From: a bacterium
GTDB lineage: Bacteria > Pseudomonadota > Alphaproteobacteria > Rhizobiales > JAKIUO01
DNA length: 38,115 bases
NCBI GenBank assembly: GCA_024228495.1
Contig: JAAETJ010000124.1
Location: 1 to 38,115, forward strand
Direction of reading: 5' to 3'
Position 1 is the stretch's first letter, and every line of letters starts with the position of its first letter. The position numbers and the translations under genes were made by a program. The notes under the pieces are model-generated. The model had not been told where the DNA came from and did no database searches. It worked only from the letters and a program-made list of their open reading frames with translations. Below, in pieces: positions 1 to 38,115 of the stretch.

Positions 1-780
<780 letters not shown>

Positions 781-1048
781 GAGAATTCAATTCTGTCTAT
801 CGACCCGGATGGAAATTCCAGGTCATCGCTATGCGTTTTGCGTTTATTGACGAGTTCCAACACATAGATTTTCCAAAGGTACAAGTACCAATAAAAAACC
901 ATGGTTGAAAATCAAAACACAGATAGACAAAGTCTCTTTCAGCTCACAATTCCCACCAGAGATCACAACCCGAAAGCTGATCAACCTAATTTCAAAAGTG
1001 AGCCCGCCAGGACTCCGCTGCCTGCGTTTCTCTTTCTTCATATTCACT

Positions 1049-1060
1049 TGTCAAAGAGCC
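1049..1060 (-). promoter_or_regulatory. boxA-like antitermination site in the rRNA leader
   Basis: On the minus strand the leader contains GGCTCTTTGACA, close to the TGCTCTTTAACA boxA consensus bound by NusB/S10 in rRNA antitermination. It lies about 270 nt upstream of the 16S 5' end and about 180 nt downstream of the promoter, which is the expected order. The function is inferred from sequence and position only. Confidence 0.55.
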
Positions 1061-1241
1061 GGACCCCCCGGAAACAGGAGATCACCTTTCTCACCGCCGG
1101 AGCTAAACTCCAAACAGAGATCAAAAGCCAATGCTGCATCCCTCCGGTTAAACCGACGTTACACAGCACAGCGTCTGATGAAAGTATTTCCAATCAGTTG
1201 GGAGCCACAAAAGAGTATCTCGCCGTCTGATCAGAAGTTGA

Positions 1242-1303
1242 GTTATATGCCCCGGCCCCAAATTGGTCAAGCACTCTTTTTAACTTTTTTACAGTTTTTT
1301 TAA
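1242..1303 (-). promoter_or_regulatory. rRNA operon promoter with A-rich UP element
   Basis: Reading on the minus strand there is TTGACC (-35, 1265-1270), a 17-nt spacer and TATAAC (-10, 1242-1247), a near-consensus sigma-70 promoter. Immediately upstream (1271-1303) are three phased A-tracts (runs of five to seven A), as expected for an UP element contacted by the RNA polymerase alpha subunit. It would give a leader of about 455 nt before 16S. Confidence 0.75.
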
Positions 1304-1638
1304 CCAAGCCGTAACTAGCTCTTTCCATTCGTAAGTCAAGCCGGTCTTTACGTCCCCCAAACCAATCGTTCCAAGGATACACTAACATAGGGCTAATCTC
1401 GAGAAATTAAGGAACCGCTATAAAAACCAGCCCAATTCAAAGTGTGCCATATTGTATCTAAGTATCTGTAAACAATGCTATTTACTCACCTATAACGTAG
1501 CAAGCCCCTCCTGGCGAAAAATGAAAAAACACTCGTTTACGCTCTTCTTAATCAGTTAGGCGCCCTTGTGCATAAACTGTGGATTTCATAACAAGGCCAC
1601 ATTAAGATAGGAAGCTTGGAAATAGAGCAATCTGCCCA

Positions 1639-3738
1639 ATGCGGATCCAACGTTATCAAATTAACTCAAAGCGTCGATCCACACTGCAAATTAACACCAG
1701 ATCAGCGCCTTTGTTTAAGGGACCTTCACGTTTGAGCCACTCGCGTCACATAAAAAGAACCGCACGCCGGCGGCGTGCGCTCGTTCCAAGCGGCACGAAA
1801 AAAGCCTTGCCGCAGGTTTATCTGCGCGGTGGCAACAAGATATTACCAGAAATATACATGACGGATCACGGCACCCACAAGGGATCGATGATCAAGTGGA
1901 TGCTCAGCACCATATTTGCTAGCATATTTGGGATCGGGGCAATCGGCACCGTGATCTATGCGTCCATGAATTCAGACAAGAAGCTGAGATCAGGAGATTT
2001 CGCCACGCAATTGCGAGATATCGGCGCCAAGGCGATGACGCCGTTCAAGCCGCTACTGGTCCATCGCCAGACCGGGCCCCGTTTTATCGGCAACAAGAGC
2101 GACCGTCTGATTGTCACTTCGAAAGGGCTGTCGGCGCGCCATATCATTCACGATACCTATTCAAAAAAACGCAATAATAAAGCCTATTTAATCATCAAAC
2201 CCTATGCTCTAATGGCCACCTCTTTTGCCACGGCCAGCCCGCATGATCAGCCTGATATCCCGGTTTTTAACCCCTACAAGCTTTATACAAATACCGCCCC
2301 TGCCCGCCTTTCGAAAAAGGGGGGCAAAACGACACCCGTGGCCAATGCCTTGACCAAGACATTTGTATTGGCCCTGACCATCTCTGCAAATGATGATCAC
2401 TTTAAACTCACCGATGACATGGCGCAAAAGCTGGTCGCCATCGCGGCAAGTGATTACTTCACAGCGCGCGACGAAACCGAAGCACAAAATCGTCGCTCCC
2501 GTCAAAATGAAGAATCTGGTGGACTGGAGGCAGTTTATAAAAATACCACGATCATTGCCAAACAGGCCGGTGCCCCGGTGGTCGTACATGACAATACCCA
2601 ACAACATGAAAAAACCGTTCGCTCGGGCGATAGCATAAACACCATGTTACGAGCAGCTGGAGCCGAGTACTGGCAAAGTGCACAGATTATCAAGGCCATG
2701 AACAAGGTCTATGCAGCCCACTCCTTGAAAGTGGGGCATAAACTGCGATATGTGACCGCTCCAAGAGCAAACAACGCAGGCAAAAGCGAACCCGTGGAAA
2801 TCGCTCTTTACAATGGTAAAAATCATTTGGTGACGGTGGCACGCAACGAAGCCGGAGAATATGCGGCAAGTGCGAAACCTGGAACAACAAAGTTTTTTGG
2901 TCGCTCCAATTCATACCCACGACGCGCCTCTTTATATCAAAGCTTCTATCATTCAGGGCTAGCGCAAAAACTACCTCCCGAGACCATTATGAAGCTTTTG
3001 CGCATTCACGCCTTTGACACCGATTACAAACGCACCACCCAGCCAGGGGATAATTTCGAAGCTTTTTTCGATATGCACGAAGGCAAAGAGCAGTTTGAAA
3101 ATGTTCCCAATGAACTACTCTTCACCTCGATCACCATCAATGGCAGCAAACGTGCCTTTTATCGCTTCAGAACGCCAGATGGGCGCATAGACTATTATGA
3201 TCGCAATGGTAAAAATGCTAAAAAATTCCTGATGCGCAAGCCGGTACGCGGCTCTCGTGTGCGCCTATCTTCGGGGTATGGATCGCGTATGCATCCGATA
3301 TTAAAACGACGCAAAATGCACAATGGCACCGATTGGGCGGCCAGTCGGGGCACCCCTATTCTGGCGGCCGGCAATGGCACGATCGTCAAAGCTGGCATGA
3401 CGCAATTTAGTGGTAACTATGTGAAAATTCGCCACGCCAATGGCTATAAGACCTCCTATAGCCATATGCATAAAATCAGCAAGGGCGTGATCAAGGGTGT
3501 GCGCGTACGTCAAGGGCAGATCATTGGTCTGGTTGGCAATACCGGCCGCTCGACAGCCCCCCATCTCCATTATGAAGTGTTGATCAATAACAGGGCCGTC
3601 AACGCCATGACAATCCCGGTGCCACGCGGACGCGTACTGGATGGCTACTTGTTGACCAAATTCAAGAAAGAGCGTGATCGTATCGACGAGCTCATGGGGC
3701 GGGACCCGGTCACAACGAAAGTCGCCTCGGCGAACTAA
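1639..3738 (+). CDS. M23 family peptidoglycan metallopeptidase, membrane anchored
   Basis: This is a 699-residue protein with a very basic cytoplasmic N-terminus (residues 1-83), one membrane span (about 87-108), a long periplasmic region and a C-terminal LytM-type M23 domain (about 540-665). The zinc-binding and catalytic pattern is intact: H552 in GSRMHP, H561xxxD565 in HNGTD, H609/H611 in SHMH and H642-L-H644. It should be an active endopeptidase cutting peptide cross-links in murein. Residues about 320-375 include a LysM-like or opacity-associated segment preceding the catalytic domain. The start has no clear ribosome binding site; a later ATG at residue 74 would still keep the membrane span, so the N-terminus is uncertain. 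The gene is divergent from the rRNA operon and convergent with the following small gene. Confidence 0.9.
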   Translation: MRIQRYQINSKRRSTLQINTRSAPLFKGPSRLSHSRHIKRTARRRRALVPSGTKKALPQVYLRGGNKILPEIYMTDHGTHKGSMIKWMLSTIFASIFGIGAIGTVIYASMNSDKKLRSGDFATQLRDIGAKAMTPFKPLLVHRQTGPRFIGNKSDRLIVTSKGLSARHIIHDTYSKKRNNKAYLIIKPYALMATSFATASPHDQPDIPVFNPYKLYTNTAPARLSKKGGKTTPVANALTKTFVLALTISANDDHFKLTDDMAQKLVAIAASDYFTARDETEAQNRRSRQNEESGGLEAVYKNTTIIAKQAGAPVVVHDNTQQHEKTVRSGDSINTMLRAAGAEYWQSAQIIKAMNKVYAAHSLKVGHKLRYVTAPRANNAGKSEPVEIALYNGKNHLVTVARNEAGEYAASAKPGTTKFFGRSNSYPRRASLYQSFYHSGLAQKLPPETIMKLLRIHAFDTDYKRTTQPGDNFEAFFDMHEGKEQFENVPNELLFTSITINGSKRAFYRFRTPDGRIDYYDRNGKNAKKFLMRKPVRGSRVRLSSGYGSRMHPILKRRKMHNGTDWAASRGTPILAAGNGTIVKAGMTQFSGNYVKIRHANGYKTSYSHMHKISKGVIKGVRVRQGQIIGLVGNTGRSTAPHLHYEVLINNRAVNAMTIPVPRGRVLDGYLLTKFKKERDRIDELMGRDPVTTKVASAN

Positions 3739-3760
3739 CGCCTCCGACCTCAAGAGCTGG

Positions 3761-4297
3761 TCATTTGCGCCGTTTTATCACTTTGAAACTGGCTGGCAGT
3801 CCGGCGCGCGAGCCACGCGGCGTCCCGCCCCCATCGAGACATACGCCATCAATGGTTTTGATTTCACCTACATCTTTCATGTCACCGACCAACAAGTCAC
3901 CGTTCAGATCGCGCATCCTCACTGTGAGCCCACCCGCCTCAAGGGCGCTGGCATATCGCCAATTGCCCTGCTTGACATTCAAAAAACCGATCAACAGCAC
4001 CCTCTTGTCGCGCCAATTATCACAGCCGCCGCCGGCAGCGCTGCCCGCTGTCAGGCCGATGGGCGAAAGCCGACACGAGGAAGTGCGCTTGAAGCTGGCA
4101 CCCTTGCCAGCCCGCGGTGATCCCCAAAGGAAATATTTTATGGGGCCATAGCAGTCGATGCGCAATCGAAAGCCTTTGCTGGTCGCCATCATGAACTTGC
4201 CCTCATAGGTCTTGTCGCTGCCGCGATCATAAGCCTGATCAGCAAAGGTGGTGCCCCCATAAAAAAACAACAAAAACAATAGAACGAATAACCTCAT
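3761..4297 (-). CDS. small secreted cysteine-containing protein, unknown function
   Basis: The 178-residue protein begins with a typical signal peptide (hydrophobic residues 3-15, predicted cut after TFA at residue 19). The mature part has four cysteines (49, 75, 92, 153), which could form two disulfides in the periplasm. A TGGAGA ribosome binding site lies about 7 nt before the ATG. It is Gly-rich in the middle (residues 81-91) and ends in a basic tail (IKRRK). I do not recognise the family. It is convergent with the M23 gene, whose stop is 22 nt away, and divergent from the NYN gene. Confidence 0.65.
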   Translation of the reverse strand: MRLFVLLFLLFFYGGTTFADQAYDRGSDKTYEGKFMMATSKGFRLRIDCYGPIKYFLWGSPRAGKGASFKRTSSCRLSPIGLTAGSAAGGGCDNWRDKRVLLIGFLNVKQGNWRYASALEAGGLTVRMRDLNGDLLVGDMKDVGEIKTIDGVCLDGGGTPRGSRAGLPASFKVIKRRK

Positions 4298-7721: not shown

Positions 7722-8773
7722 GAGCGTGATCTCCCATATGCCGCTGACACAGGCACCAGATGAAAGCCACGGCTTTCCAGTTTCCTGGCCCACTCGCTGA
7801 TTAAATTAATGGAGACGGGATGCATGTGAGCCACCCCAACGGCAAATCCGGAACGCTTCGCAGAGGCTTCAAGCTTTTGCAATGCTCGTGCAATCGCGCC
7901 CCCACTGGGGTTTCTATCTATTTGCAGATTTGCCTGAGAATAGCCAAGCCCGACGCGCTCAGCAATCTGTAAAAGTGCCGGACTGCCACCGGTGTTCTCG
8001 CGAAAAAATACTAACCCACGATGTTGCAATTCCTTGAACAGACCGTCAGCCGCCTTATTATTTGCCAAGAAGCGTCCGCCCTTATTATTGACCACCCCAA
8101 AATATCCGCTAAACCGACCTAATGACCAATACAATCGAGGACGGTTTTCCAGCGCGCTATTTGCAACCAGCAAGGTTTGCGGACCAGTATCACTTTCAGG
8201 ATAATCGTGAGGTTCCATTGGCACTTGCAACATTAGTTCATGGCCCAGATCTCGCGCTTTGCTGACCAATTTTGGCAAGCGGCGTCCATAGGATGAAAAG
8301 GCCAGAGAAATTTCAGGTGGAAACTTTTGTACCGCACGCTCCGAAAGGCGTTGATTGAGCCCGAGGCCCGTGACCAGGATAGCAATGCGTGGCAAGGCGT
8401 CGGCGACAGTCAGATCAGCACGGGCATAGACGAGTGATGGGCTGCGTCCGTCCGTTGAGCGTTTTGGCAGTGGCCCAAATTTACTTTGTTCGATCAGGCC
8501 GTTACTTGAGCCCTTAGTCAGTGGAGTCGGAGTTGATCGCAAATGATCGGGTGTCACATTGAGCACAACTTGCGCCTGACCACCGCTCAAACCTTGTACA
8601 GCTGGAGTGGAAACAGACTGGGAGTGGGCCATTTTTTGCGGATTTGTTTCCTTATTTATATGCATGAGAGCGCTTGGCTCCCCTGATAAAGGCGTGCCAC
8701 TTGCCAGCGCCCAGACGAAGATGCCCAAGAACAGTGCCAATACCAGCATTGTTGCCACACCTAAAGCTTTCAT
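7718..8773 (-). CDS. divergent polysaccharide deacetylase family protein (DUF610)
   Basis: The 351-residue protein begins with a hydrophobic signal/anchor (residues 5-25) and carries the divergent polysaccharide deacetylase domain from about 135 onward: RIAILVTGLG, then ELMLQVPMEP, DYPESDTGP and FRENTGG are family hallmarks. It is expected to act in the periplasm, possibly on glycans, but the metal-binding residues of classical NodB deacetylases are not conserved in this family and activity is unproven. The ATG at 8773 has AGGAG 10 nt upstream; an earlier ATG at 8806 lacks one. In Alphaproteobacteria this gene regularly follows ctpA and envC, pointing to cell-wall remodelling. The stop overlaps the rppH start by 4 nt. 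Confidence 0.88.
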   Translation of the reverse strand: MKALGVATMLVLALFLGIFVWALASGTPLSGEPSALMHINKETNPQKMAHSQSVSTPAVQGLSGGQAQVVLNVTPDHLRSTPTPLTKGSSNGLIEQSKFGPLPKRSTDGRSPSLVYARADLTVADALPRIAILVTGLGLNQRLSERAVQKFPPEISLAFSSYGRRLPKLVSKARDLGHELMLQVPMEPHDYPESDTGPQTLLVANSALENRPRLYWSLGRFSGYFGVVNNKGGRFLANNKAADGLFKELQHRGLVFFRENTGGSPALLQIAERVGLGYSQANLQIDRNPSGGAIARALQKLEASAKRSGFAVGVAHMHPVSINLISEWARKLESRGFHLVPVSAAYGRSRS

Positions 8774-8830
8774 TCCTAGTTTTCTCCTAGTACACGACCG
8801 AATCACTCAAACCATAACGCAAAACGCAAA

Positions 8831-8856
8831 CAGGCGCACATTTTCATGTACGCCTG
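8831..8856 (-). terminator. hairpin after ctpA
   Basis: CAGGCG (8831-8836) pairs with CGCCTG (8851-8856), extended by ACAT/ATGT after one mismatch, with a 4-nt loop. On the minus strand it is followed by TTTGCGTTTTGCG, a broken T tract. It lies between ctpA and the deacetylase gene, so it may only attenuate readthrough. A second 7-bp inverted repeat, GTTCCAT/ATGGAAC, lies nearby at 8876-8900. Confidence 0.45.
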
Positions 8857-8921
8857 AACAATTCGTTTTCTGTCAGTTCCATTTTTATCTGGTATGGAAC
8901 AGATCATTTTACGAATTCAGC

Positions 8922-10271
8922 CTAGTTGGCAATAGTCTTCTTTGGCACGTCCACCGCATCGCTTTTGGCGGTCTCCTCCGCCTTGACGCCATGCAAAAGA
9001 TCGAGTGCAAATTTTAGCTGCGTATCTCTGGCCCGATCTTTAGGGACATAAGACTGTGAGCCGCTTTCTTCTTTTTCGATACCACTGTTTTTAAGATGAC
9101 CACGCAAGCTTGCTTCACCGCGAGGTTTGATATTTCTTTTTGCCAGCTCTTCTGGCAAAGGCTGGACGATCTTGTGATCGGGCTTGATCCCCTTGGCCTG
9201 AATGGAGCGATTTGATGGTGTATAATAACGAGCTGTGGTCAAGCGGATCGCACCATTTGCGCCAAGTGGCACAATGGTTTGCACCGACCCCTTGCCAAAT
9301 GATCTGGTGCCAACAATGGTGGCCCGTTTGTGATCTTGCAAGGCCCCCGCGACAATCTCCGACGCTGATGCGGACCCGCCATTGATCAACACGACGACTT
9401 TACCACCTTTGGTCAGGTCGCCTGAGTGCGCATTGGCCCGCTGGGTTTCCTCGATATTGCGACCACGGGTTAATACGATGGCACCTTTTTCAAGAAATAC
9501 ATCAGAGACATCAATAGCCTGATCGAGAAGACCGCCGGGATTATTGCGAAGATCGACAATATAGCCCTTGATCTTGGGACCGATCTCCTTGTTCATCTTG
9601 CGAATAGCCGCTTTAAGCATATCGGTTGTCTGCTCGTTAAAGGTGGTAATACGGACATAGCCAATGTCTTTTTTATCACCTTCGACCCGAGATTTAACGG
9701 GATTGATACGAATTTTATCGCGCACAACTTTTACGTCAAATGCGTCCTCCTTGCCTTTTCTAACAATGGTCAAGGTCAAGGGGGTGTTGATGGGGCCGCG
9801 CATTTTGTCGACGGCTTCACCAAGTGAGAGGCCAGTAATGCCTTCGCCATCCAGATGGGTAATAAGGTCGCCAGATAAAATACCGGCGCGCGAAGCTGGC
9901 GTATCATCGATCGGCGAGACCACCTTGACGATACCGTTTTCCATGGTCACCTCAATGCCAAGGCCCCCGAACTCACCGCGGGTCTGCACCTGCATATCTT
10001 CAAAATGCTTAGCATTGAGAAAAGAAGAATGAGGGTCTAACGAACTCAACATGCCATTAATGGCTGTTTCAATCAGTTTTTTGTCGTCAGGCTTTTCCAC
10101 ATAGTCAGAGCGCACACGCTCCAGCACCTGCCCAAACAGATCAAGCTGTCGATAAATCTCGGTATTTGCGGCAGTCGCCGAGTGGCTACGCATCATGTTC
10201 AGCACTGCAGTCCCGGCTGCCAGCATAGCCATCGCCATGAACGCCCAAAATGCAAACTCGGTTTTCCGCAT
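8922..10271 (-). CDS. ctpA: S41 carboxyl-terminal processing protease
   Basis: This periplasmic serine protease trims or degrades cell-envelope proteins, and in several bacteria controls murein hydrolases. The 449-residue product has an N-terminal membrane anchor (about 6-26), a PDZ domain (about 97-180, with GGLGIEV and SGDLITHLDG) and the S41 core: GGSASASEI with catalytic S302, and SFGKGSVQ with K327 and Q331. The ATG at 10271 lies 5 nt after the envC stop with AAAGG upstream; the longer frame would overlap envC. The direct envC-ctpA coupling suggests a shared role in septal murein splitting. The C-terminal 70 residues are variable and charged. Confidence 0.95.
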   Translation of the reverse strand: MRKTEFAFWAFMAMAMLAAGTAVLNMMRSHSATAANTEIYRQLDLFGQVLERVRSDYVEKPDDKKLIETAINGMLSSLDPHSSFLNAKHFEDMQVQTRGEFGGLGIEVTMENGIVKVVSPIDDTPASRAGILSGDLITHLDGEGITGLSLGEAVDKMRGPINTPLTLTIVRKGKEDAFDVKVVRDKIRINPVKSRVEGDKKDIGYVRITTFNEQTTDMLKAAIRKMNKEIGPKIKGYIVDLRNNPGGLLDQAIDVSDVFLEKGAIVLTRGRNIEETQRANAHSGDLTKGGKVVVLINGGSASASEIVAGALQDHKRATIVGTRSFGKGSVQTIVPLGANGAIRLTTARYYTPSNRSIQAKGIKPDHKIVQPLPEELAKRNIKPRGEASLRGHLKNSGIEKEESGSQSYVPKDRARDTQLKFALDLLHGVKAEETAKSDAVDVPKKTIAN

Positions 10272-31089: not shown

Positions 31090-31998
31090 CTAAATATCCA
31101 CTTTTTGACTTTCCATCGCCGCTTCCAGCTCGCGCTTAACGTCATCCTTCAAGGTATCGCATCTTTGCAGCACCTCTTCCATCTTGAAGAAATCGAGCAC
31201 CTTGAAACGCCCTACCGGGGGAGAAATCAGAATATCTGGCTGATGGTCCCGCAGTTTCTCTCGCACAATTGAGCGCATGATGATTTGTGAAGTGCCAATC
31301 AGCGCCTCCACGGAGCCCGGCACGCTTTGACCATCACCGCGCGGCTCCCCATTAACATCAATGGCCAGGGATATGTCTGTTTTACCCTTCAGGCTCTCAA
31401 AGGGCAGTGGATTGACAAACCCACCGTCAATCAGCACATGCCCGTCAATCACAACGGGTTCAAGAAGGGCGGGAAGGGCCGCGCTGGCAGCAATTGCTGG
31501 AAGAAGCCGACCGCTTGTGACATCTCTTTGCAACTGCGTATGATAATTCGTCGTAACAGCAATAAAGGGGATTTTCAAATCTTCGAAATCTTTTGCCAGA
31601 CCATCTGACATGAGTGTTCCAAGTATGGTTTCCATATTGAATATCGCGGGTGAAAACGGGTTCCATATCTGCGTACGAGAGCCGTGCCATTTGCTCATCA
31701 TTTTGCGCACCAGATTGCTCTTCTTGAGGAACAATTCCTCGCAGTGCGCGCGGATTTGCATCCCGGACATGCCAGAGGCATAAGCGGCGCCCAATATTGC
31801 GCCAATGCTGGTTCCTGAAATAAGATCCGGTTTAACGTCGAACTCGTCCAGCGCCTCCAACACGAGAATATGCGCAAGGCCGCGCGCACCGCCGCCGCCA
31901 AGCGCCAGTCCAATGGTTGGCCGGGCTGATTTGGGCTTCGCGGTTTCCTTCTTTTTCTTGGTCATTTTAGGTTTCTTGTCAATCATTTTACCGGACAT
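31090..31998 (-). CDS. patatin-like phospholipase (RssA-type)
   Basis: The 302-residue protein has all patatin-fold catalytic elements: oxyanion loop GGGGARG (34-40), nucleophile S64 in GTSIG and catalytic D191 in LIDGG. The family cleaves acyl chains from phospholipids or acts as regulators of lipid turnover. The N-terminus (1-28) is Lys-rich and may bind membranes. GGAGAGG is six nt before the ATG. It precedes the lipoprotein gene on the same strand with 196 nt between. Confidence 0.9.
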   Translation of the reverse strand: MSGKMIDKKPKMTKKKKETAKPKSARPTIGLALGGGGARGLAHILVLEALDEFDVKPDLISGTSIGAILGAAYASGMSGMQIRAHCEELFLKKSNLVRKMMSKWHGSRTQIWNPFSPAIFNMETILGTLMSDGLAKDFEDLKIPFIAVTTNYHTQLQRDVTSGRLLPAIAASAALPALLEPVVIDGHVLIDGGFVNPLPFESLKGKTDISLAIDVNGEPRGDGQSVPGSVEALIGTSQIIMRSIVREKLRDHQPDILISPPVGRFKVLDFFKMEEVLQRCDTLKDDVKRELEAAMESQKVDI

Positions 31999-33446: not shown

Positions 33447-34928
33447 ATGCCGCGCGAACGACCGCCACTGGATAACAACGACAATGGAAACGGCAAGGGT
33501 AACGTCGCCGAATTCACCGTTTCCGAGCTGTCATTTGCTGTCAAGCGCACAGTAGAGCGCGGTTTTGAGCATGTGCGGGTGCGCGGCGAACTCGGGCGTA
33601 TTTCAACACCGGCCTCGGGGCATATTTATCTCGATTTGAAAGATAACAAGGCGGTCATCAACGGGGTAATCTGGAAAGGCAATGCGCAAAAGATGAAAAT
33701 CCGCCCTGAACAAGGGTTGGAAGTCATCGCCACGGGTAAACTCACCACCTTCCCCGGCCAGAGCAAATATCAAATCATCATTGACAGTATCGAGCCTGCC
33801 GGGGTCGGCGCGCTAATGCAGCTGCTTGAGCAGCTCAAGAAAAAACTTGAAGCCGAGGGACTGTTTGCCGATGAGCGCAAAAAACAACGCCCCTTTTTGC
33901 CCCGTACCATCGGCATTATCACTTCGCCAACCGGCGCAGTGATCCGCGATATGATGCACGGCTTTACCGAACGCTTCCCCTCCCATGTCATTGTCTGGCC
34001 GGTGCGCGTGCAAGGCAAAACCAGCGGCGAAGAAGTTGCTACAGCCATTCGCGGCTTTAATGCGCTTGACGAGAGCGGCCCTGTGCCTAAACCAGATGTG
34101 TTAATCGTGGCACGCGGTGGTGGCTCGCTGGAAGATTTATGGGGCTTTAACGAAGAGGTGGTGGCGCGCGCCGCCACAAATAGCGATATCCCGCTCATTT
34201 CAGCGGTTGGCCATGAAACCGACTGGAGCGTGCTGGATCTGGTCGCAGATTTTCGAGCGCCCACCCCAACGAAAGCGGCTGAATGGGCAGTGCCCAAATA
34301 TTCTGAATTGATCGAGCGACTTGGCGAGTTGGGGCATCGACTCAACCTTGCCAATCGACGCTCACTGGAAGCGCGCCGCAACCGGCTACTGGCCGCATCA
34401 CGTGGTCTACCCCGATTGGCAGATCTTTTGGCATTGCCACGCCAACGGGTCGACGAGATGAGCCGCCGTCTGTCCGGCAGCCTCATGCAACATGTCCGCG
34501 AAAAACGCTCAAAACTTGAGCGTCTGCCCCTATCGGCCAATATACTGATGATGCGCCAGCGCCAAGGATGCGAGCGACTTCATACCTTAAGCGAACGACA
34601 TAATCGCAGCTTCAAGGCGCTCATTGAGCGCAAACGGTTCGCCTTTGAGGGGCAAGGAAAACTGCTGTCAACGCTTAGTCACAAATCCGTGCTGGAGCGC
34701 GGTTTTGCACTTATCCACGATACCAGCGGCGCCATGATCAGATCAGTCACGGATATGAAAAGCGGCCAACTGATCCAGCTCGAAATGGTTGATGGCAATA
34801 TCAGCAGCGAGGTCGTTGACACCAGCATAAAGCCCGAGCGCCGGACCACAAAAAAAACCAAGCCACCAGCCAAAAAAGTCGCGAAAAAACCGACTTTCAA
34901 CGGAGGGGGGCAAGGGTCATTATTCTAG
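33447..34928 (+). CDS. xseA: exodeoxyribonuclease VII large subunit
   Basis: XseA is the catalytic subunit of ExoVII, which degrades single-stranded DNA from both ends together with XseB. The 493-residue protein has an N-terminal OB-fold domain (about 22-115), the catalytic segment (ITSPTGAVIRDM, IVARGGGSLEDLWGFN, SAVGHETDWS, DFRAPTPTKAAEW) and the coiled-coil region (about 290-400). The C-terminus is Lys-rich. xseB is not in the window. It ends at an inverted repeat (34922-34948). Confidence 0.96.
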   Translation: MPRERPPLDNNDNGNGKGNVAEFTVSELSFAVKRTVERGFEHVRVRGELGRISTPASGHIYLDLKDNKAVINGVIWKGNAQKMKIRPEQGLEVIATGKLTTFPGQSKYQIIIDSIEPAGVGALMQLLEQLKKKLEAEGLFADERKKQRPFLPRTIGIITSPTGAVIRDMMHGFTERFPSHVIVWPVRVQGKTSGEEVATAIRGFNALDESGPVPKPDVLIVARGGGSLEDLWGFNEEVVARAATNSDIPLISAVGHETDWSVLDLVADFRAPTPTKAAEWAVPKYSELIERLGELGHRLNLANRRSLEARRNRLLAASRGLPRLADLLALPRQRVDEMSRRLSGSLMQHVREKRSKLERLPLSANILMMRQRQGCERLHTLSERHNRSFKALIERKRFAFEGQGKLLSTLSHKSVLERGFALIHDTSGAMIRSVTDMKSGQLIQLEMVDGNISSEVVDTSIKPERRTTKKTKPPAKKVAKKPTFNGGGQGSLF

Positions 34929-35432: not shown

Positions 35433-36257
35433 ATGATGTCGAAAACAGCCGACTCGATCAGCTTACTGATAGTGACTTTGTGCCTTGCCCTGGCCCTTAC
35501 AACGACCCCAACCCTTGCCGCCAAATGTGGCAATAACTCCAAGGGCTTTGGCAAATGGCTGGTGCAGTTTAAAAAAGAAGCCCGCAGAAAAGGCATCAAG
35601 AAACGCACCCTTAGACGCACCCTTCGGGGCGTGCGCTATGATCATTCAGTGATCAAAAAAGATCGCGGCCAAAAGCATTTCAAACTTAGCTTTGCCAAGT
35701 TCTACAAATTGCGGGTCTCCCCCGGCGGACTCAAAAAAGGTCGCGGCATGATGCGCCGCCATCGTAAATTACTGCACCGCGTCTACAAAAAATATGGTGT
35801 GCAGCCACAGATCATCACAGCAATCTGGTCGCTAGAAACATTTTATGGCGGCTATACCGGCGACAAACCGATCTTCCGGTCGCTCGCGACACTGTCATAT
35901 GATTGCCGCCGCACAAAAATGTTCACCCAAAACCTTTATGCCGCTTTGCGCGTCGTACAGCGCGGTGATTTGAACCCCAAAAGAATGAAGGGTGCCTGGG
36001 CCGGAGAACTCGGCCAGACCCAGTTCATGGCGCGCAACTATTATAAATATGCCGTTGATTTTGATGGCGATGGAAAACGCGACCTGATCCGCTCAAAGGC
36101 CGACGCCCTCGCATCGACCGCCAATCTTTTGCGGGCCCACGGCTGGAAACGCGGCGGCTGTTATCGCCCCGGCTGCAAAAATTTCAGAGTCCTGCACCAT
36201 TGGAACCGTTCGAAAGTCTACCAAAAAACAATCGCCAAAATGGCCTCACAGCTTTAA
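35433..36257 (+). CDS. MltB-like lytic murein transglycosylase, copy 1
   Basis: The 274-residue protein has a signal peptide (cut near LAA, residue 29) and an SLT_2 (MltB) domain: IWSLETFYGG with catalytic E135, and GAWAGELGQTQFMARNYY. A DFDGDGKRDL loop (about 206-215) resembles a calcium-binding loop, as in MltB. The enzyme cleaves the MurNAc-GlcNAc bond giving 1,6-anhydro ends. It is shorter than classical MltB and has no peptidoglycan-binding domain. The mature protein is very basic. The start has GGAG eight nt upstream. It is followed 69 nt later by a paralogue. Confidence 0.92.
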   Translation: MMSKTADSISLLIVTLCLALALTTTPTLAAKCGNNSKGFGKWLVQFKKEARRKGIKKRTLRRTLRGVRYDHSVIKKDRGQKHFKLSFAKFYKLRVSPGGLKKGRGMMRRHRKLLHRVYKKYGVQPQIITAIWSLETFYGGYTGDKPIFRSLATLSYDCRRTKMFTQNLYAALRVVQRGDLNPKRMKGAWAGELGQTQFMARNYYKYAVDFDGDGKRDLIRSKADALASTANLLRAHGWKRGGCYRPGCKNFRVLHHWNRSKVYQKTIAKMASQL

Positions 36258-36326
36258 ATACCAAACCTAATTGACAGGCGGTGGGACTTTTCTCGCTGCT
36301 TCTTTGTAAAAACAGGAATTAGAGTC

Positions 36327-37136
36327 ATGCGCTTTAAACAATTACGTCTCATCACCCTTGCTCTTTCAATCGCGGTTATATCGAGCCCGGCCCTTGCTGC
36401 CAAATGCGGCAATAGCGCTGGCGGCTTTAACGCCTGGAAGGCCCAGTTCACCAAAGAGGCCCGCAAAAAAGGCATCTCGCAAAAGACCCTCAATCGGGCC
36501 TTCAAGGGCGTCTCTTATGACCGGCGCGTCATCCGCCTTGATCGCTCCCAAAAAAGCTTCAAACTTTCATTCGCGCAATTTTACAAGCGCCGCGCGGCTG
36601 GCCTTGTTGGCCGCGCCCGCCGCAAGCTCAAACAAAATGCCGGTCTGCTCCGGCGTATCGAAAAGCGCTTTGGTGTACCCGGCCCGATCCTTGTCTCCAT
36701 CTGGGGTCTGGAAACCGGTTTTGGGGGAAATTCGGGCAAGATGAATGTCGTAAAATCCCTCGCCACCCTGTCCTATGATTGCCGCCGCACCAAATTCTTC
36801 ACCAGGAACCTTTATGCAGCCCTCAAAATCATCCAGCGCGGCGATATGAGCCCCGGTCAGATGCGCGGAGCCTGGGCCGGAGAGCTTGGCCAAACCCAGT
36901 TCATGGCCCACTCCTATCTGCGCTTTGCCGTTGATTTCGACGGTAATGGTCGCCGTGATCTGGTGCGCTCGCGTGCCGACGTCCTCGCCTCCACCGCCAA
37001 CTATCTACGTGGCCATGGCTGGAAACGCGGCGGCTCCTGGGGCCCCGGCACCCACAATCACAACGTCCTGCGCAAATGGAACAAAGCCGGCGTCTACCGC
37101 AAAACCATCGCCAAAATGGCGAATGCGATAAAGTAG
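36327..37136 (+). CDS. MltB-like lytic murein transglycosylase, copy 2
   Basis: This 269-residue paralogue of the preceding gene shares its whole layout: signal peptide cut near ALA (residue 24), the opening AKCGN, catalytic E129 in WGLETGFGG, GAWAGELGQTQFMAHSY, the DFDGNGRRDL loop and the C-terminal HGWKRGG...KTIAKMA. Identity looks high by eye in the catalytic half. It has AGGAATTAGAG just before the ATG and no separate promoter that I can see, so the two are probably cotranscribed. GC content at third positions is visibly higher than in copy 1. Confidence 0.92.
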   Translation: MRFKQLRLITLALSIAVISSPALAAKCGNSAGGFNAWKAQFTKEARKKGISQKTLNRAFKGVSYDRRVIRLDRSQKSFKLSFAQFYKRRAAGLVGRARRKLKQNAGLLRRIEKRFGVPGPILVSIWGLETGFGGNSGKMNVVKSLATLSYDCRRTKFFTRNLYAALKIIQRGDMSPGQMRGAWAGELGQTQFMAHSYLRFAVDFDGNGRRDLVRSRADVLASTANYLRGHGWKRGGSWGPGTHNHNVLRKWNKAGVYRKTIAKMANAIK

Positions 37137-37167
37137 GCTGGCGCAATCAAGTAGGAATGAACAGGTT

Positions 37168-37194
37168 GGCGAGTGCAAATATAATGCGCTCGCC
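37168..37194 (+). repeat. inverted repeat after the transglycosylase pair
   Basis: GGCGAGTGC (37168-37176) pairs with GCGCTCGCC (37186-37194), 9 bp with one wobble, around an A/T-only 9-nt loop. No T tract follows. It could stabilise the mRNA end. Confidence 0.35.
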
Positions 37195-37237
37195 GGCCCC
37201 AATGTCTTCGCCAGGCAGGCAGCCTGTGCGGCTGGCA

Positions 37238-37265
37238 CCAAGGGCAAGCCCTTGGAACCCTTTTT
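37238..37265 (+). terminator. probable terminator of the transglycosylase operon
   Basis: CCAAGGGC (37238-37245) and GCCCTTGG (37248-37255) form a perfect palindromic stem with effectively a 4-nt loop, followed by AACCC and T5. It lies about 100 nt after the second transglycosylase stop. Confidence 0.45.
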
Positions 37266-37351
37266 GAGTAATCCGTTTAACATGATGAGAGTAAGCGGAC
37301 GAACACCAAGAAGGTTCAACCAAGCTTATTCAGCATCTTTAGAAAAAACAT

Positions 37352-37844
37352 CTAGGGCGATGGCCTGTCCCATTGTTTTCCCGGCATCCGAGTATGAAGA
37401 GCTCCGCGTTGTTTTTTTCCACAAGACTTACTCGATGAAAGACTTTTCAAGAAAACCGCTTGTTCCTCGCCAAACAAGAGGGTCATCAAACTCCGCTGCC
37501 TGTCTCTTATACTGGGGTTTCGATGAAGTTTCATCACCATCGGAATAAAACTGCGTCTTTGCCAATTCAGGTGGCAGTACTTCATTAGAGCAGAAACAAT
37601 ACCAGTTTTGATAGCCTCACGAGCCTGATCTCGTGATATTGGCGGAACCTAAAATTCCTCCTTCGTAGTAGGGCGGCATTTGATTTTACCACAATTTCCT
37701 CTCTGGATTCTTTTTAGCGCCAGTCAAATAAGATTGTCGACTCGTTGATCCGAAAGGTATTTGTCCATAGTCGTCGGCGCTGATCCAACCTCCTCGGCCA
37801 GAACGATGAAAAAACAAAGAACTGCTAGAAAACGTCCAATCATA
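37352..37844 (-). pseudogene. probable broken gene for a small secreted protein
   Basis: On the minus strand an ATG at 37844, with GGAG eight nt upstream, opens a 52-codon frame with a signal-peptide-like start (MIGRFLAVLCFFIVLG, cut near ISA), ending in TAA at 37686-37688. In another frame, open from 37648 to the TAG at 37352-37354, a protein-like segment follows: AREAIKTGIVSALMKYCHLNWQ..., RRSFIPMVMKLHR, RQRSLMTLLFGEEQ. The two pieces together have the length of a small exported protein, so a frameshift plus nonsense changes may have broken one gene. Alternatively they are unrelated short frames. I do not know the family. Confidence 0.35.
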
Positions 37845-38008
37845 AATCAAACTCCATATTGGCGTGTGCGCCTCTATTTTAGGTCGCGAAACAAAAAATA
37901 CAAACCCACTCCGATATTTTAATTGTTCCTACCCCCCAATTCAGGGTTTGGGGACCAGTCCCCAACGCTGTGCGCGCAGCACGCCTGTCCGGCGAGGACA
38001 TTACTTTC

Positions 38009-38115
38009 CTAATTCACAACCGCCCCTTCACCGACCACCACAAAGGGGGCCCAGTAAGAGGGGTGTGAGGCCAGGTTATCATCTTTTTTGTCGATCAGTG
38101 ACAGCATAGCAAGGC
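38009..38115 (-). CDS. C-terminal end of a CHAT-domain protein (partial)
   Basis: Read on the minus strand from the right edge, the last 34 codons of a gene end in TAG at 38009-38011. The residues include LSLIDKKDDNLASHPSYWAPFVVVGEG. The pattern HPxYWAPFVxVGxG is the typical ending of CHAT domains (caspase HetF associated with TPRs), caspase-like proteases usually attached to TPR repeats. Catalytic His and Cys and the rest of the protein lie outside the window. The assignment rests on this short motif. Confidence 0.65.
   Translation of the reverse strand, partial: LAMLSLIDKKDDNLASHPSYWAPFVVVGEGAVVN

Follow-up and report, generated by a model that had tools for sequence, protein, structure and literature searches.

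The window, by which we mean the whole 38,115-nucleotide stretch that was analysed, is the entire contig C123 of a fragmented genome assembly (G000, hereafter the own genome; 1254 contigs, 4.5% contamination), and its right edge carries the end of a minus-strand gene whose translation over 38009-38113 is LAMLSLIDKKDDNLASHPSYWAPFVVVGEGAVVN, followed by the stop codon. A first-pass annotation had taken this fragment for the C-terminus of a CHAT-domain protein and had expected the frame to run past the window end; both readings were borne out. The 34-codon frame is real and continues through 141 identical bases into contig C131 (4001 bases), which holds a single open reading frame (ORF; 17..3967, 1316 codons). 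This ORF ends in the same C-terminal sequence and includes a complete CHAT domain. Three records of the same genus have contigs named 'k141_', and the 141-base overlap therefore looks like an assembly k-mer overlap. At its other end, C131 agrees at 97-98% identity with the end of contig C827, which represents a strain variant of the 5' flank, and this near-identity suggests a strain mixture in the assembly. In the relative L040 (G004:C75), an uncut contig carries xseA, an SLT_2 transglycosylase, CHAT, an ECF sigma factor, an anti-sigma protein and a subtilase in one piece and in this order, so that the gene order does not depend on the 141-base overlap alone. The features on the window side are listed in Table 1.

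Table 1. Features at the right end of the window (positions on contig C123)
Feature	Position	Strand	Remark
xseA (large subunit of exonuclease VII) in the housekeeping flank, used as synteny anchor	33447..34928	+	
SLT_2 lytic transglycosylase, tandem paralogue	35433..36257	+	synteny and domain search
SLT_2 lytic transglycosylase	36327..37136	+	kept on the CHAT side in L038, L040 and L041
Gene-poor spacer between transglycosylase and CHAT gene	about 37137..38008	.	varies between species
Exact 141-base overlap with the end of contig C131	37975..38115	.	identical to C131:3861-4001 (-)
C-terminal 34 codons and stop of exported (predicted) TPR-CHAT gene	38009..38115	-	translation; remainder on contig C131

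The gene-poor stretch that had been described next to the fragment is real, with two ORFs only (98 and 104 aa) touching it at a 90-aa threshold. By blastn (E 1e-3), short parts of it match the genus relatives L038, L039 and L040, and no match was obtained against L041. Beyond the spacer, the ten window ORFs that were scanned are mostly housekeeping genes. Both copies of the tandem SLT_2 pair (35433-37136) are also present in L038 and L041. Between CHAT and transglycosylase, L038 has a TIR_2 and TPR protein of 366 aa (8517-9614, minus strand), and L040 has a UPF0114 membrane protein in its place.

The TPR-CHAT protein and its immune reading

The full-length protein has the architecture of many TPRs followed by CHAT that the first-pass annotation had proposed. 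Pfam assigns nine TPR_12 and nine TPR_10 stretches, and the CHAT family PF12770 is covered from profile position 3 to 289 of 289 by residues 975-1311, with 181 bits against a cut-off of 24 (E 1.9e-54 when the whole genome was searched). A check for the catalytic His and Cys had been suggested at the outset; the ATHG and SACN motifs, which we take to hold this pair in CHAT domains, are identical in all five genus orthologues. The four other orthologues are 64-83% identical to the own-genome protein. Translation likely starts at the ATG at position 68 of C131, which is preceded by an AAGGAG element and followed by a hydrophobic stretch and a cleavage site of the ANA↓Q type. A signal-peptide-like N-terminus was recognized by eye in the alignment of all five orthologues, and the TPR-CHAT protein is predicted to be exported. 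Among other CHAT ORFs from the order, 29 of 34 begin in a signal-peptide-like manner according to a rough and generous heuristic; exported TPR-CHATs thus seem to be common in the order. The second CHAT match of the own genome, on C210, was ruled out as a TPR-CHAT: the ORF (L004, 6588-8165) encodes an exported-looking caspase (Peptidase_C14) fused to an NADase_transloc F5/8-type domain, with a weak CHAT match.

The fragment had also been placed among the TPR-CHAT proteases of bacterial immunity, such as the Craspase partner of gRAMP and gasdermin-activating proteases, and this membership is not supported. That the gene encodes a protease acting in immunity or cell death, like that of Craspase or the gasdermin-activating enzymes, is, in our judgement, very improbable. 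The CHAT and TPR architecture would fit such a protease, as would the TIR-TPR gene found within this variable spacer in a single relative, L038, and general PADLOC matches were obtained for the subtilase (model 'subtilase' 1.4e-29, IetS 4.2e-12) and for the window patatin at 31090-31998 (phospholipase effector models, 3e-13). We read these PADLOC matches as family-level only, and the CHAT protein itself was matched through a general TPR model only. Against the immune reading stands the signal-peptide-like start of all five orthologues. Moreover, no gRAMP, gasdermin or CRISPR gene was found among 10 window ORFs and 6 C827 ORFs by Pfam (3 of the latter also by PADLOC), and a PDB sequence search with the CHAT protein listed no Csx29/Craspase chain at E 0.001.

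The divergent ECF operon, its distribution and its promoter

As the first-pass annotation had anticipated, the interesting part of the region lies past the window edge. On C827, the genes divergent from CHAT encode an ECF sigma factor, a 230-aa protein with a single transmembrane segment and an exported subtilase. The sigma factor matches PF04542 and PF08281 over cut-off, and NCBIfam PRK12515 with 270.4 bits against a cut-off of 236. The 230-aa protein, which we call the anti-sigma protein, has only sub-threshold family matches (PRK13920, E 9.7e-4, 18.8 bits against 225; NF052375, 16.6 bits against 100), and the model of the own-genome protein has a long hydrophobic helix at 111-134. The subtilase matches PF00082 (E 1.5e-44), and its residues D213, H244 and S399, invariant in 31 of 31 sequences, are read as the catalytic triad. 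CHAT lies beside the ECF gene in all five genus genomes; in L038, L039, L040 and L041 the arrangement is found on single contigs, and in the own genome the 5' part of CHAT is beside ECF on C827 and the remainder on C131.

The operon itself is distributed far more widely. A search of 150 genomes found the anti-sigma protein in 34, the own genome included, and gave 36 operon loci; ECF, anti-sigma and S8 genes are all present in 33 of these, and the three in which no subtilase was detected (L058, L062 and L069) are each cut near a contig end. The anti-sigma gene adjoins the ECF gene in 35 of the 36 loci, the exception, L062, being a contig-end piece. Searched against 385 genomes from across the class, a profile built from the 34 anti-sigma sequences had matches in 35, again including the own genome, 14 of the 35 at E 1e-19 or better. 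For alignment, set A1 leaves out L062 and L063, where the anti-sigma gene is cut by contig ends, as does set A3; set A2 is without L054 and L038, the latter with its subtilase in two frames, and set A4 is without L054 and four members lacking a clear catalytic motif by pattern (L044, L057, L071 and L072). In L063 (3270-5765) the order is changed, with the subtilase upstream of ECF and anti-sigma, and in L038 (1543-2915, minus strand) the subtilase is split in two overlapping frames, by a frameshift or an assembly error.

The TPR-CHAT gene adjoins the operon in the window genus only. None of the 31 other operon loci has CHAT within the fetched stretch; in six of them the divergent side spans less than about 0.7 kb or the ECF gene is missing, so that 25 loci are informative. 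On this distribution, the operon is evidently older than its link with CHAT. CHAT was found at 80 places in 39 of the 150 genomes, five of them the genus orthologues, and 40 of the other 75 places were fetched; none of these 40 regions has ECF, anti-sigma or S8 matches near the CHAT gene, which makes the link genus-specific and positional, six of the 40 being without a CHAT match at E 1e-5 (L088, L106 and L108-L111) and several contigs being short. In five loci from other families that were tested (L043, L044, L046, L056 and L060), the divergent slot is filled by a homologue (E 3e-125 or better) of a 677-aa, exported-looking protein without a Pfam match. The own-genome copy of this protein lies apart from the operon (L147, 711-2741; contig C278), and matches to it were found in 56 of the 150 genomes, the own genome included. 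The G004 copy contains one in-frame TAG, and the G003 match is in two pieces.

A promoter-like motif, TGAACC-N16-CGWC, precedes the inferred ECF start by 19-43 bases in 29 of 35 loci. Among 26 less redundant ECF upstream regions, the commonest dyad is present in 20, whereas the commonest dyad of any one of 20 shuffled sets reached 4-6 regions; for this count, eight of 34 upstream regions were dropped (six near-duplicates and two genus loci). A position weight matrix made from 20 sites outside the genus recognises the ECF promoter of each of the five genus genomes (P at most 0.015). The CHAT promoters have no exact site in any of the five loci, and with the same matrix they give P 0.56-0.91 in four loci and 0.03 in L041, so that control of the CHAT gene by the sigma factor is not supported. 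A TGAACA element kept upstream of CHAT in four of the five loci was rejected as a sigma site, its -10 side being a misfit and its score that of chance. Because the motif precedes the sigma gene and not the CHAT gene, the link of CHAT to the operon is one of position alone. Within 1.5 kb on the divergent strand, an exact motif occurs in 9 of the 35 loci and in none of the five genus loci.

Genome-wide, exact sites number 21, 23, 13 and 17 in the four genus relatives against 9, 6, 1 and 8 in reversed controls, and 17 against 17 in the own genome, where there is no excess. Chance sites are among those of the own genome, since at least one of them (L155) falls within a helicase-like ORF. In each of the five genus genomes, an exact site lies some 275-310 bases ahead of the gene for the 677-aa protein, by direct view in G000, G002 and G004 and by coordinate comparison for G001 and G003. 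We read 20 site regions (10 from the own genome, 7 from G002 and 3 from G004): three sites precede the 677-aa protein, five or six precede a small exported-looking protein as judged by eye, the L153 site lies 254 bases before an L,D-transpeptidase, and those in L150 and L159 precede a 236-aa-type protein without a Pfam match. The remaining regions showed no convincing gene.

These data bear on a reading in which TPR-CHAT is an unrelated neighbour, one of many exported-looking TPR-CHATs that landed by chance in the divergent slot. We consider this a serious contender, if a somewhat less than even one. It would account for a CHAT promoter without the sigma motif and for the 40 other fetched CHAT regions, none of which is near such an operon, and it agrees with the five other-family loci, in which the divergent partner is of the 677-aa type, the genus orthologue of which lies elsewhere and has kept the motif. 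However, the adjacency is preserved in all five genus genomes despite a CHAT divergence to 64% identity, and the pairing of TPR-CHAT with ECF has precedents in Craspase and in ECF54.

The anti-sigma periplasmic domain and the subtilase prodomain

In the AlphaFold2 model of the anti-sigma protein, the C-terminal 70 residues form a beta-alpha-beta-beta-alpha-beta arrangement, with pLDDT 77-85 per ten-residue block over 161-230; the N-terminal half is mixed and the linker poor, with a pTM of 0.33 and only 119 of 230 residues reaching pLDDT 70. The prodomain of the subtilase model has the same order of elements (blocks of pLDDT 86-95 over 101-170), and pro-subtilisin and fervidolysin, aligned along most of the model, are among its best matches. 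When the anti-sigma domain was compared with the PDB by VIA-align, subtilisin propeptides took ranks 1, 2, 3 and 5 with Z 8.6-8.9. The best was 1scj_B (Z 8.9, rmsd 2.0, 64 of 71 residues aligned), and 3whi_B (8.9), 3cnq_P (8.8), 1spb_P (8.6) and POIA1 (8.3) were also found. The same list contains the unrelated proteins NapD (Z 8.8) and elongation factor 1 (Z 8.3), because the ferredoxin-like fold is common, and a Z near 8 can reflect that common arrangement. Foldseek gave no match for the anti-sigma model at E 0.001 or better (best E 8.3e-3), and PDB sequences searched with a profile of the anti-sigma C-terminal domains yielded nothing notable (best E 0.68).

Family and profile comparisons point in the same direction. 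PF22148 (Fervidolysin_NPro-like) is the commonest Pfam family of the anti-sigma domains, matching 8 of 34 (best 7.1e-5), and it is also the commonest family of the subtilase prodomains, matching 15 of 28 (best 2.5e-6); the own-genome anti-sigma domain and S8 prodomain, each searched singly, match no Pfam family. In hhalign, the anti-sigma domain and the prodomain align colinearly over 61 columns with a score of 24.8 and P 6e-4, at a probability of only 28.6%; the real score exceeds all of 200 column shuffles (maximum 17.5) and the reversed control (10.9). Earlier profile comparisons covering the anti-sigma N-terminal part, the subtilase catalytic domain, ECF and both domains gave P 0.019-0.25 against 0.0016. 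By predicted fold, Pfam and profile comparison, the putative periplasmic domain of the anti-sigma protein thus resembles the subtilase prodomain. A literature search, limited to titles and the openings of abstracts with most subscription papers and preprints beyond reach, found no report of a prodomain-like anti-sigma domain.

The second Pfam family of the anti-sigma domains is SPOR (4 of 34, best 1.2e-4), which raises the alternative that the domain is a SPOR-like peptidoglycan sensor and that the subtilase is merely a member of the regulon. The motif site 254 bases before the L,D-transpeptidase and the two lytic transglycosylases beside the CHAT gene would suit a sensor of this kind. We nevertheless find this explanation unlikely, given that PF22148 has double the number of matching members and ranks first among the families of the neighbouring subtilase prodomain too, and that the fold list is headed by subtilisin propeptides. 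No SPOR-domain structure is among the 50 matches listed by Foldseek and VIA-align, which in itself excludes nothing.

A proposed protease switch and its known relatives

We regard the chances as evenly balanced that the locus joins an exported TPR-CHAT protein to an ECF/anti-sigma/subtilase switch that has a sensor of prodomain fold and frees its sigma factor by cutting. The ECF sigma factor would be held at the inner membrane by the single-pass anti-sigma protein, the periplasmic domain of which, with its predicted subtilase-prodomain fold, would provide a docking site for the mature subtilase encoded by the next gene. Docking of the subtilase, or loss of docking while the protease is engaged elsewhere, would set whether the juxtamembrane linker of the anti-sigma protein is cut, and the sigma factor freed in this way would act at TGAACC-N16-CGWC promoters to transcribe its own operon together with genes for exported envelope proteins. 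Our inference is that the subtilase releases the sigma factor by docking on the anti-sigma protein or by cutting it; most simply, the subtilase would be the regulatory protease of its own operon. The signal might alternatively have the opposite sign, the anti-sigma domain being an inhibitor that reports free protease. In the window genus, the TPR-CHAT protein would most likely contribute to that envelope function as another periplasmic endopeptidase, and its TPR superhelix may recognise a protein ligand. More tentatively, and with some doubt on our part, a captured subtilase prodomain could be the periplasmic sensor in the anti-sigma proteins of this alphaproteobacterial ECF family, through which the sigma factor reads whether the protease encoded next to it is free or engaged, with TPR-CHAT having joined in the window genus to give a two-protease envelope switch. 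To our knowledge, the signal sensed by many ECF anti-sigma periplasmic domains is not known; a sensor that is built like the protease's own inhibitor and encoded in the same operon offers a direct, testable rule for what is sensed.

In the type III-E CRISPR system, the TPR-CHAT component of Craspase is Csx29; it cuts Csx30, which inhibits the ECF-like CASP-sigma (PMC10028731). The system resembles the window locus in that a TPR-CHAT is linked genetically to an ECF-like sigma factor and its inhibitor, and in that cutting frees the sigma factor. The comparison with Craspase made in the first-pass annotation therefore survives in its functional part, CHAT adjoining an ECF/anti-sigma pair here, and is not supported as immune membership. 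The present locus differs in that TPR-CHAT is predicted to be exported, Cas7-11/gRAMP was not seen, a subtilase is present, a prodomain-like domain is part of the membrane-bound anti-sigma, and the PDB search gave no sequence match to Csx29. The catalytic residues of Csx29 are H615 and C658 in its own numbering (PMC10028731). An exported TPR-CHAT beside a cell-envelope signalling operon would echo the TPR-CHAT/sigma pairing of Craspase outside immunity. The same precedent, together with the adjacency to the ECF/anti-sigma pair in all five genus genomes, raises the idea that TPR-CHAT, and not the subtilase, cuts the anti-sigma protein from the periplasmic side, as Csx29 cuts Csx30. We think this improbable, though a live alternative: the operon has no adjacent CHAT in the other 31 loci (25 of them informative), the subtilase is present in 33 of 36, and Csx29 works in the cytosol on an inhibitor of a different type.

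The nearest published parallel that we could find is group ECF54, for which a review gives a conserved context of carboxypeptidase, subtilase and CHAT genes with no anti-sigma, a model protein from Geodermatophilus and a proposal of proteolytic control (PMC8999054). Both systems combine an ECF sigma factor with subtilase and CHAT proteins. Whereas ECF54 is described there as having no anti-sigma in the locus, here the gene of an anti-sigma-like membrane protein with a prodomain-like domain adjoins the ECF gene and separates it from the subtilase gene, and only in one genus is CHAT next to the operon. Proteolysis of the RseA/DegS type likewise involves a membrane anti-sigma with a periplasmic domain, a site-1 protease, which is only proposed in our case, and an envelope regulon; here, however, the protease is a subtilase and not of the HtrA type, its gene belongs to the operon itself, and it is the protease's own prodomain that the sensor domain resembles. 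In Sinorhizobium meliloti, rpoE6 (ECF26) is described as part of an ECF/anti-sigma pair with a divergent serine protease gene that belongs to the regulon, an arrangement stated to be widely conserved in the group (PMC6180224). The association of such a pair with a serine protease gene is shared, whereas the listed RpoE6 targets show upstream sequences other than TGAACC-N16-CGWC.

Subtilisin propeptides and I9-type inhibitors (1scj, 1spb, 3cnq and POIA1, 1v5i) share the predicted beta-alpha-beta-beta-alpha-beta fold at Z 8.3-8.9, but in the present system the domain is fused to an anti-sigma protein behind a transmembrane helix. Only three residues follow the last strand in the own-genome anti-sigma model, so that an inhibitor tail reaching into the active site may be missing. 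Propeptides without their last residues do occur in protease complexes, according to PDB titles (3a3o and 3a3n).
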